Assembly: GCA_021827745.1 (NCBI GenBank)
Contig: JAKAUI010000048.1
Span: 1-40,326, forward strand
DNA: 40,326 bases
Direction: 5' to 3'
Source: Bacillota bacterium
GTDB taxonomy: Bacteria; Bacillota; Sulfobacillia; JAJZYS01; JAJZLH01
Position numbers and translations under genes: made by a program
The notes under the pieces: generated by a model
Seen by the model: the letters and a program-made list of their open reading frames with translations, nothing else
Databases searched by the model: none
Told to the model about the DNA's origin: nothing
Part shown: one piece after another, positions 28,362 through 31,952 of the stretch
Numbering within the stretch: position 1 is the stretch's first letter
How the letters are laid out: each line of letters starts with the position of its first letter

Positions 28362-28367
28362 ATTATA
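28362..28367 (-). promoter_or_regulatory. Consensus -10 box (TATAAT) for tRNA-Glu, overlapping the upstream stop codon
   Basis: TATAAT on the minus strand includes the TAA stop of the methionine synthase gene (28363-28365) and ends 10 bases before the tRNA 5' end, leaving a predicted 3-base 5' leader. No good -35 box is visible at 16-18 bases, so read-through transcription from the upstream gene is also possible. Confidence 0.5.
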
Positions 28368-29415
28368 GCACGCCGGCCGCCGCCTTCCGCACGCCCTCCA
28401 CCAGAGCGCTGAGCTTCCTCAGGGCCTGCCAGCGCGGCGTTTGCGAAAAGCCGCAGTCGGTGGTCAGGCTCAGGTCTTCGGCAGGCACATGGCGGAGCAG
28501 GGTCTCAACGCGCCACGCCACGTCGTCCGCCGTCTCGATGTACGAACTCTTGACGTCGATCACGCCGGCTGCCAGAAAGAGGTGGCGTCCGGCCTGGTCC
28601 AGCCAACTGGACCAGAGCTCCGCCTCGGCCATCTCGCGATTGGCAAACTCCAGCACCCACTCCTCGGCCGGGATCTTGACCAGCTCCCGGACCAAAGGGT
28701 CGTACCGGCGCCAGGCAAAGGGCCGGCCCTGGTTGTCGCCAAAGCAGATGTGGATGGAGACGGCGACGTCGATGCCTGCGAGGGCGCGCTGGGCTGCCTC
28801 CACGGCGAGCCCCGGATCCTGGTCGCGGGCCATCGTCGGCTCGTCGATCTGGACGTGGGTGGCACCCGCCTGGACGAGGGCCTTGAGCTCCCGATTGACG
28901 AGATCGGCCAGGCTGAGCACGGCGGCGCTGCGGCTCGGGTAACCTGACGCCACCTCAAGCGGCATGGCCAAGGTGATCGGGCCCGCCACCGTGGCCTTGA
29001 CCGGGCGGCTGGCGAAAGAGCGGGCGGCGGTCCAGGTCTGGACGGCCCCCAGGGTGGTCTCGGGCGAGAAGGCCTCGGTCAGGCGCCGCTTTGGCATCTG
29101 GTCGTAGCCGAAGGGGCCAAGCCGGCGCTCAACCGGCTGGAGCGGGATGCCGAGCGCATCGAAGTACTGGCCCAAAAAGCCGCCGGGGATGTACACCTCG
29201 CCGCTTCCGATCTCATCGAGGCCCGCTGCCTCCTGGTCCAATACGGCGAGTCGGGTGGCGTCGCGAGCGGCCTCGGCCAAATCGGCCGGGCCGATCGAGG
29301 ACTCATGGGCGGCGTTGGCCCGCAGGTGGCTCAGCCATCCTGGCGCCGACATGCTGCCCACGGCAGTGGTCTTCAGTCCTCCAAAGGCGTGGACGGCTCC
29401 GTTTCGCTGGCTCAT
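28363..29415 (-). CDS. Core-type MetE methionine synthase (cobalamin-independent, C-terminal domain only)
   Basis: The 350-residue product corresponds to the catalytic C-terminal barrel of MetE and lacks the N-terminal half of the roughly 750-residue enzyme. Zinc ligands are visible: HxC in SIHICFGD, Glu in WVLEFANREM and Cys in SLTTDCGFSQTPRW. VQIDEPTMARD is the substrate-loop motif. Such short proteins occur in archaea and several bacteria and transfer a methyl group to homocysteine. The donor may be a methylated corrinoid protein or something else rather than methyl-folate, and that cannot be read here. ATG 29415 follows GGGGAGGA at 6 bases. It diverges from the Sec-glutaredoxin candidate. 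The B12 uptake operon elsewhere in the window would fit a corrinoid donor. Confidence 0.85.
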   Translation of the reverse strand: MSQRNGAVHAFGGLKTTAVGSMSAPGWLSHLRANAAHESSIGPADLAEAARDATRLAVLDQEAAGLDEIGSGEVYIPGGFLGQYFDALGIPLQPVERRLGPFGYDQMPKRRLTEAFSPETTLGAVQTWTAARSFASRPVKATVAGPITLAMPLEVASGYPSRSAAVLSLADLVNRELKALVQAGATHVQIDEPTMARDQDPGLAVEAAQRALAGIDVAVSIHICFGDNQGRPFAWRRYDPLVRELVKIPAEEWVLEFANREMAEAELWSSWLDQAGRHLFLAAGVIDVKSSYIETADDVAWRVETLLRHVPAEDLSLTTDCGFSQTPRWQALRKLSALVEGVRKAAAGVL

Positions 29416-29443
29416 CGGCGGTCCTCCCCACGTGGCGATGCAC

Positions 29444-29454
29444 CGAATGATTCG
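29444..29454. repeat. Short perfect inverted repeat upstream of core-metE
   Basis: CGAATGATTCG is an 11-base palindrome with one central base, about 30 bases upstream of the core-metE start. It may be a regulator site, but its small size makes chance possible. Confidence 0.3.
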
Positions 29455-29484
29455 TGATCGGCCGCGCCACTCCCGCACCCACCG

Positions 29485-29513: not shown

Positions 29514-29561
29514 CAGACGAGGACTCGCTTCTTTGGCCCTACCTTAGAGGAGGTGCCTTCG

Positions 29562-30029
29562 GTGGCTGAGCTGACCCTGTACCAGTTCGACACCTGACCC
29601 TACTGCGTATTGGTCCGCCGCCGGCTCGGAGAGCTCGGCCTCGCCTTTCACGTGGTCACGATTCCCCGCCCGTCCAGCCAGCGCCAGGAGGTCCTGGCCG
29701 TCAGCGGTCAGCCCACGGTGCCGGTTCTGGTCACAGAGGACGGCGTCTTCACAGATGAAAACGACATCCTGGCCTATCTCGAGAAGACCTACGGCTCCCC
29801 ACCCAGACGGCCGCAGGCCAAGGCGCAGCTTTGGCCTGACGACGTCAGCGCCCATCTGGATCTCTTGGCTGAGCGTCTGGAAAAGACCAGCGAGGAGCTG
29901 GCGGCCATTTCCCGCGCCGCCAGCTCCCGCAAGGCCGTCGATCTGACCAACGTGCTGCAGGTCGCCGCCCAGGCGGCTGCCGACGCTGCCCACTGGACCG
30001 CCGGACGGGCGGAATCGCTTCGGTCCTGA
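29562..30029 (+). CDS. Candidate selenocysteine-containing glutaredoxin-like protein (UPYC motif)
   Basis: Read from GTG 29562, which has AGAGGAGGTG just upstream, the frame gives VAELTLYQFDT, then TGA at 29595-29597, then PYCVLVRRRLGELGL, and stays open to 30029 (155 codons with the TGA as an amino acid). The TGA stands exactly at the first position of a glutaredoxin CPYC motif. The rest of the N-terminal domain is typical (GQPTVPVLVTEDGVFTDENDILAYLEK, with the cis-Pro segment TVP). A helical tail of about 70 residues follows. A SECIS-like hairpin lies 30 bases after the TGA. The likeliest reading is Sec insertion, giving a UxxC thiol-disulfide oxidoreductase. Alternatives are a nonsense mutation, a read error, or internal initiation at TTG 29610 giving a domain without its active site. 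A normal annotation would miss the N-terminus. Confidence 0.8.
29620..29639 (+). promoter_or_regulatory. Candidate bacterial SECIS element
   Basis: In the mRNA, GCCGGCTC (29620-29627) pairs with GAGC-CGGC (29631-29639). This makes an 8-bp stem with a single bulged U at 29635 and the three-base apical loop GGA (29628-29630). The loop starts 30 nucleotides after the in-frame TGA. A short stem, guanines at the start of the loop, a bulged U and this distance are features described for bacterial SECIS elements bound by SelB. The pairing is drawn by hand and has not been checked with a folding program. Confidence 0.6.
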
Positions 30030-30079
30030 CCCCGTCTCCCTAACCGTCCGCCAAGCGACCACCTTTCCTCCGAGTCGAC

Positions 30080-31249
30080 CTAGACCGAGCGGCCCAGAAG
30101 CGCGGCGCCGTCCGTGGCGCAGAGCTCGGCGAGCAGGCGGGCCGCCGGCCGCCAGGCAAAGCGCTGGCCCGGCACGGGACGCGGGCAAAGGCCGAAGGCC
30201 GGTCCCCAGCCCTCGCGCCATTCGAAGTTGTCCCAGAGCGTCCAGTGCAGGTAGCCGGCCACCGAAAGTCCCGCTGCCCGCGCCTCGAGCAGCACCCGCA
30301 CGTGGCTCTTCAGATAGTCCGAGCGCGCGTCTTCGTCCAGAGTGGCGATGCCGTTTTCGGTGATCAGAACGGGCAGACCTAGCGGCTTCAGCCAGGACAG
30401 GACGGTGGCCAGATCGGCGCTGTCCGTCACCCAGCCCATCTGGGTCACCGCTTCATGCGGTCTTGAGCGGCAGACGGCAAAGAGCCCCTTGGCGTAGCTG
30501 CGGGCGTAGAAGTTGACGCCCAGAAAGTCGTGGCCGCCCTTGGTCCACTCATAGAAGCGCTGGTTGAAGAAGGTGTGCTGCAGGCGGCTTCCGACCTGGT
30601 CCACCAGGTTGTGCGGCCGATAGGCCAGGATCGGGGTCAGATGCTTCGCCACGCCGACCTTCCGGGCCGAGTCGGCCTCGTGCAGAATCTCGTAGGCCTG
30701 GAGGTGCGATCGGGCCAAAACCCGCCCCACCCGGCTCGCCTCCGTGGCGGAGCGGCGGCCCGGCGCCCACTCTCCCAAGAGGTGGCCCATCACGGCCAAC
30801 ACCATCGGCTCGTTGATCGTCACCCACCAGGTGGCGTCAAGGGCCGTACCGACCGCCGTGCAAAAGCGGGCGAAATGGTCCGAAAAGTGCGGACTGAGCA
30901 CGCCGCCCTCGGCGGCGAGCCACTTGGGCAGGGTGAAGTGATGCAGTGTGACCACCGGCTCGATGCCGCACTCCTGGGCCGTTACGACCATCCGCCGGTA
31001 GTGGTCGAGGGCGGACTGGTCGGTCACGCCGGGTGCCGGCTCGATCCGGCTCCACTCCACCGAGAAGCGGTAGGCGTTCAACCCAAGGGCCCGAAGCGCC
31101 CGGATGTCGTCTTGCGCGTGCAGGTAGTGGCCGCAGGCCTCTTTGGCACCTTGAAACTGGGGCGCGATCGTCTGCTCGAAGTCGGACCAGTCGGCGTCGT
31201 GGATGTCGCCTTCCACCTGGTAGGAGGAGGTCCCGACGCCCCACAGCAT
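30080..31249 (-). CDS. Glycoside hydrolase family 1 (beta-glucosidase-like)
   Basis: The 389-residue enzyme has the GH1 barrel: GVGTSSYQVEG at the N-terminus, AYRFSVEWSRIEP, TLHHFTLPKWL, the acid/base Glu in TINEP and the nucleophile Glu in LITENGIA. HWTLWDNFEWREGW binds sugar near the end. It is shorter than common members (about 440-480 residues) but has all catalytic segments. It should hydrolyse beta-glucosides or beta-galactosides; no signal peptide is seen, so it is probably cytoplasmic. ATG 31249 has GGGGAGGGG 5 bases upstream. No sugar transporter is near, and the gene diverges from tmk and converges with the Sec-glutaredoxin candidate. Confidence 0.92.
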   Translation of the reverse strand: MLWGVGTSSYQVEGDIHDADWSDFEQTIAPQFQGAKEACGHYLHAQDDIRALRALGLNAYRFSVEWSRIEPAPGVTDQSALDHYRRMVVTAQECGIEPVVTLHHFTLPKWLAAEGGVLSPHFSDHFARFCTAVGTALDATWWVTINEPMVLAVMGHLLGEWAPGRRSATEASRVGRVLARSHLQAYEILHEADSARKVGVAKHLTPILAYRPHNLVDQVGSRLQHTFFNQRFYEWTKGGHDFLGVNFYARSYAKGLFAVCRSRPHEAVTQMGWVTDSADLATVLSWLKPLGLPVLITENGIATLDEDARSDYLKSHVRVLLEARAAGLSVAGYLHWTLWDNFEWREGWGPAFGLCPRPVPGQRFAWRPAARLLAELCATDGAALLGRSV

Positions 31250-31337
31250 GCCGACCCCTCCCCAGATGGTGCCGAGACAGGTTTTCGCCTCGGTCAGGGC
31301 GAACGCCTTCGCACTTCTGCCACCCGCCCGAGGAGGC

Positions 31338-31952
31338 ATTGCCACGCCAGGTATCCTGATCGCCATCGAAGGCATCGACGGCAGCGGGATCAGCACCCAG
31401 TCCCGGGCGCTCACCCGCTGGCTCAAAGACTCGGGACACTCGGCCGTGTGCACCAAAGAGCCCACGGCCGGTCCCGTCGGCCAGTTGATTCGGCGCTCCC
31501 TGCGCGGCCAGGGGTCGGCCGCTCACGTGAGCGAGCCGGTGCTGGCCGCCCTCTTCGCGGCAGACCGGCTGGACCACCTGCAGCGGGTGATCGAACCGGC
31601 CCTGGGAAGAGGCGAGATCGTGGTCTGCGACCGCTATCTGCTCTCCTCGTTCGCCTACCAGTCCCTGGCCGTGGACATGGACTGGCTGCGCCAGCTGAAC
31701 CGGCGGGCCAGGCGACCGGATCTCACGCTCTGGCTGACCGTGTCTCCGGCCACCAGCCGCCAGCGCCGCGTCAGCCGGGTGACGGACGAACGCTACGAGT
31801 CAGACGACCACCTGGCCCTGGTTTCGGCCCAGATGCGCGACCTAAGCCGGCGGCTTTCAGGCGAGCTGCACATCTTGCCCGTGGACGGCGAAGGCAGCGT
31901 GAGTGACGTGCTTACCCGCCTTCAGGCGGCGGTGACGGAAAGGCTGCGCTGA
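31338..31952 (+). CDS. tmk: Thymidylate kinase with altered P-loop
   Basis: The product (about 204 residues) matches dTMP kinase: IAIEGIDGSGISTQSRAL, TKEPTAGPVGQLIR, AALFAADRLDHL, CDRYLLSSFAYQ (the DR[YH] motif) and LTVSPATSRQRR. It would phosphorylate dTMP to dTDP. The Walker A motif reads GSGIST, with Ile where Lys is expected (codon ATC at 31389). The start is uncertain: a strong GAGGAGG (31330-31336) is followed by ATT 31338 (1 base away) and ACG 31344 (7 bases away), with no in-frame ATG, GTG or TTG nearby. The first ATG in frame is 31248, without a Shine-Dalgarno and over the start of the divergent GH1 gene. The last 41 bases overlap the convergent methyltransferase gene. Confidence 0.85.
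   Translation: MATPGILIAIEGIDGSGISTQSRALTRWLKDSGHSAVCTKEPTAGPVGQLIRRSLRGQGSAAHVSEPVLAALFAADRLDHLQRVIEPALGRGEIVVCDRYLLSSFAYQSLAVDMDWLRQLNRRARRPDLTLWLTVSPATSRQRRVSRVTDERYESDDHLALVSAQMRDLSRRLSGELHILPVDGEGSVSDVLTRLQAAVTERLR

Follow-up and report, generated by a model that had tools for sequence, protein, structure and literature searches.

The window analysed here is a 40,326-nucleotide stretch of contig JAKAUI010000048.1 from a Bacillota bacterium. On its plus strand, a gene that we interpret as encoding a selenocysteine (Sec)-containing glutaredoxin occupies positions 29562..30029, from a GTG start codon to a TGA stop codon at 30027-30029, and specifies a protein of 155 amino acids. The sole internal stop in this frame is another TGA, at 29595-29597 (plus strand), which falls on the first cysteine of the CPYC motif and which we read as Sec12, giving FDT-U-PYC. 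A Shine-Dalgarno-like element lies at 29547..29556 on the same strand, in the AGAGGAGGTG region, with GAGGAGGT approximately 8-15 nt 5' of GTG 29562, and the sister genomes have AGGAGGT or GGAGGA ahead of an ATG at the position equivalent to this GTG. The standard ORF list contains only a truncated ORF of 139 amino acids, beginning at a TTG codon (29610-30029) and lacking the active site. The initial annotation had described the continuous frame with a single TGA at the catalytic position and the Shine-Dalgarno sequence upstream of the GTG, and had predicted that a gene finder would make an N-terminally truncated call; the sequence, its translation and the ORF list bear it out on all three points. 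The gene is flanked by a MetE-like gene and a glycosyl hydrolase family 1 (GH1) gene, at 28363-29478 and 30080-31465, both on the minus strand.

The thioredoxin-fold sequence continues past the TGA, as the initial annotation had noted. With the TGA entered as Cys, the protein matches Pfam GST_N_3 (E = 3.9e-17, residues 6-81) and Pfam Glutaredoxin (PF00462; E = 2.1e-12, residues 5-59, 47.5 bits against a curated cut-off of 22.9), and both matches span the TGA. An AlphaFold2 model built from 20 sequences (mean pLDDT 84.6, pTM 0.55) has a thioredoxin-fold domain at residues 5-77, a poorly modelled linker at residues 80-88, and two long helices (residues 95-122 and 126-154). From Pfam and the model together, we place a glutaredoxin/GST N-terminal domain at 29574..29801 (plus strand, residues 5-80) and a predicted two-helix C-terminal extension, which has no Pfam family of its own, at 29844..30023 (plus strand). 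Foldseek and HMMER searches return glutaredoxins and GST N-terminal domains. The longer Foldseek alignments to GSTs are obtained only at approximately 10 A rmsd, and the C-terminal part has no convincing match. The identification as a glutaredoxin stands, with a refinement: Pfam and the model point to a GST-N-like glutaredoxin fold followed by a helical C-terminal extension, and not to a plain glutaredoxin.

We searched for homologs in 61 genomes and then class-wide, in 154 genomes. The long form of the protein is confined to 12 genomes in the class-wide search, all from one order, and nearly all of the named relatives are metagenome-assembled genomes (MAGs) labelled Bacillota bacterium. Half of the 12 have TGA at the motif's first position: three in the window's genus (G000, which is the window's own genome, G001 and G002) and three in another family of the same order (G005, G008 and G010). 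The other six have TGC, encoding Cys (G006, G007, G009, G012, G013 and G014). The two congeneric TGA homologs are 81% and 70% identical to the window protein. Across the alignment the motif region is ungapped and its flanks are conserved, without the random decay that would have argued against the initial annotation, and conservation is seen alignment-wide at the C/U-P-Y-C motif and at the cis-Pro (TVP) segment TVPVLV. Because the exact column has TGA in five other MAGs, the TGA is not a chance event or a sequencing error. The gene's own terminator is TGA in G000 and G001 and TAG in G002, and in the first two genomes UGA serves as both Sec and stop inside one ORF. Short Cys paralogs (~80-95 amino acids) are also present in the second family. 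Synteny with the MetE-like and GH1 neighbors is seen in both sister genomes and is limited to the genus: neither gene was recovered from the flanks retrieved for the other family, where two of the Sec genomes have instead, just upstream, an ORF that we judge by eye, from a DLDGTLTD motif, to resemble a HAD-type phosphatase. No functional link follows from these neighbors.

The frame beyond the TGA is under purifying selection. Pairwise dN/dS among the three genus members is 0.105, 0.158 and 0.067 for residues 13-80, compared to 1.2-2.3 in shifted frames, and there is no decay on either side of the TGA. An in-frame stop is what a pseudogene would show, and a nonsense mutation ending a decaying glutaredoxin gene would account for it, but the TGA is retained in two families, across six genomes, dN/dS is low to either side of it, and no other disruption is present, which makes this explanation very improbable. 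We give a similarly low probability to the idea that the real product is the truncated protein initiated at TTG 29610, with the upstream frame untranslated. Although this is the ORF that a standard caller reports, such a protein would have neither the first beta strand nor the catalytic motif, and the segment that it leaves out is conserved in its UPYC motif, its start and its Shine-Dalgarno region, with a dN/dS of 0.14-0.22 among the genus members for residues 1-11 (an estimate from few sites).

The initial annotation had proposed looking for selA, selB, selC (tRNA-Sec) and selD in the rest of the genome, and all four are present in the window's genome assembly (1.62 Mb in 64 contigs, 96.8% complete): a tRNA-Sec (72.7 bits, with anticodon tca according to ARAGORN), selA (479 bits) with selD directly downstream of it, selB (359 bits), and selD itself (343 bits), with an in-frame TGA of its own (SNKSG-U-GCK). 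In the related family, some genomes (G005, G007 and G010) have a pair of different selD genes, each with TGA at the position of Sec (for example, SGUGCK and SPGSGUACKVG). The formate dehydrogenase alpha subunit gene of the window's genome also has an in-frame TGA (SCNRT-U-HAP), and the hairpin after it has the loop GGUCU, which we take to be the same as the loop of the E. coli fdhF SECIS element. Because this genome combines the Sec machinery with TGA-bearing selD and formate dehydrogenase genes, Sec decoding is very probably in use in the organism. Reassignment of TGA throughout the genome, or readthrough without Sec, would give the codon a sense reading as another amino acid (such as Trp or Cys) and likewise keep the frame open, but we regard this as extremely improbable given that in G000 and G001 the gene itself terminates at a TGA where homology ends, and that the genome's Sec machinery is complete. 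Coding on the reverse strand, where an ATG frame of 225 amino acids is open (29544-30221, minus strand), can be practically dismissed, as that ORF has no Pfam match, is interrupted by five stops in sister genome G001, and has a dN/dS of ~1.1.

Bacterial SECIS elements are hairpins lying just 3' of the UGA, with a small apical loop that contains a conserved G (PMC1088965). We found a putative element of this type at 29620..29639 (plus strand), GCCG-GCUC-GGA-GAGC-u-CGGC, whose GGA loop (29628-29630) is at nt 34-36 counting from the U of UGA. A CCGGCUC-GGN-GAGCU hairpin with 7-8 pairs and its loop at nt 34-36 is present in all six Sec genes and in none of the six Cys genes, so a GGN loop with the small size and conserved G of a bacterial SECIS lies just 3' of the UGA in every Sec form. 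To gauge how readily such a structure appears, we recoded the Sec genes with random synonymous codons drawn according to local usage, and the hairpin arose in 7-9% of cases; we infer that the chance of obtaining it in two separate lineages, each counted once, is roughly 0.6%. Most of the selD hairpins in the same genomes have a C-GGA-G or C-GGC-G triloop like that of the Sec-glutaredoxin hairpin, and the glutaredoxin loop is farther from the UGA than the selD and fdhA loops of the same genome (~nt 21-26). RNAalifold recovers the helix and finds no compensatory covariation in it. Since the hairpin is without covariation, the evidence for it as a SECIS is of moderate strength, supportive but not decisive. 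A second hairpin closer to the UGA (GACC...GGUC, nt 2-21) was rejected as a SECIS: it is predicted in G000 and G002, but neither in G001 nor in the second family.

Conservation of the TGA, its pairing with Cys in homologs, the Sec machinery, purifying selection, the hairpin and the fold lead us to conclude that the gene almost certainly encodes a Sec-containing glutaredoxin. The UPYC protein proposed in the initial annotation is thereby upheld, with the machinery, the TGA and Cys homologs and the selection on the frame all speaking for it. Incorporation of Sec at UGA 29595 would involve decoding of this codon by SelB and Sec-tRNA, directed by the downstream hairpin inside the coding sequence. 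By analogy with known Sec-glutaredoxins, Sec12 would be the nucleophile, its selenolate most likely attacking substrate disulfides or selenenylsulfides, and Cys15 would resolve the intermediate; the oxidized protein may then be returned to its reduced state by a cellular thiol or the thioredoxin reductase/thioredoxin system. A thioredoxin reductase was found in the window's genome. A search limited to the GCS2 profile gave no match there for a GCS2-type gamma-glutamylcysteine ligase (GshA). For BshA there was nothing above the cut-off, and the matches below it are as expected from other glycosyltransferases. Because GCS2-type GshA was not found, dependence of the protein on glutathione is doubtful.

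Sec-glutaredoxins with a UxxC motif are already known, so what we describe is a new lineage and an extension and not a new kind of system. In the review PMC13188914 they are a listed selenoprotein family, classed as experimentally studied through work on Clostridium, and they have been reported in Sargasso Sea data (PMC1088965). Like the glutaredoxins of Clostridium sp. OhILAs and the Sargasso Sea, the window protein has a PF00462 domain in which Sec replaces the first cysteine of CxxC, Cys homologs, and a hairpin 3' of the UGA (PMC13188914, PMC1088965), but it comes from a different lineage, GST_N_3 outscores Glutaredoxin, and it has a 70-residue helical C-terminal extension. It resembles the UXX-star and YruB-type proteins (NF041212, NF041114, NF041211) in its short glutaredoxin-like fold and in having Sec at the motif's N-terminal end, but it retains the resolving Cys (UPYC) and scores far below the NCBIfam cut-offs (35 bits against 66 for NF041212). 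Another genome of the class, G047, contains a second, different short glutaredoxin-like gene (C10:3471-3635) in which TGA takes the place of the first cysteine of CPYC (ITVYTTPT-U-PYC) and which lies just 5' of a groES-like frame; judging by its sequence, its product is another candidate for Sec, of the YruB/UXX-star type. The window protein shares the GST N-terminal fold with the GST-like selenoprotein family (PF13409/COG0625), but it has UPYC and no full GST C-terminal domain, whereas those proteins are listed without UxxC in PMC13188914. Short haloarchaeal Cys glutaredoxins (~85 amino acids, LDGCPYC) are ~50% identical to it over the first 78 residues, but they lack both Sec and the C-terminal extension.

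In a tree of the glutaredoxin domain the Sec forms occupy two positions: those of the window's genus stand alone, and the remaining three group with the Cys long forms; the short and haloarchaeal Cys forms are outside. Among the long forms, either Sec was lost once or it was gained twice. Several genomes with the Cys form retain tRNA-Sec, and one of them (G007) has selA, selB and selD, so the machinery was present when Sec and Cys were exchanged. Three elements are novel: the lineage, which consists of uncultured Bacillota MAGs; the 70-residue two-helix extension, for which Pfam has no family; and the Sec/Cys exchange within one order. Tentatively, and with slightly more doubt than belief, we suggest that these proteins form a distinct selenoprotein subfamily of Sec-glutaredoxins joined to a two-helix domain of their own, which in a Bacillota lineage lacking glutathione would have a dedicated reductant and substrate, Sec and Cys having been exchanged at least once within the order. 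Our understanding of Sec decoding is unchanged by this Sec-glutaredoxin, but the annotation is corrected at a gene whose active site ordinary gene calling would drop. The range of known Sec-glutaredoxins now includes a little-studied order of uncultured Bacillota, in which near-relative Sec/Cys pairs (two genera of one family) make the gain of Sec over Cys measurable.
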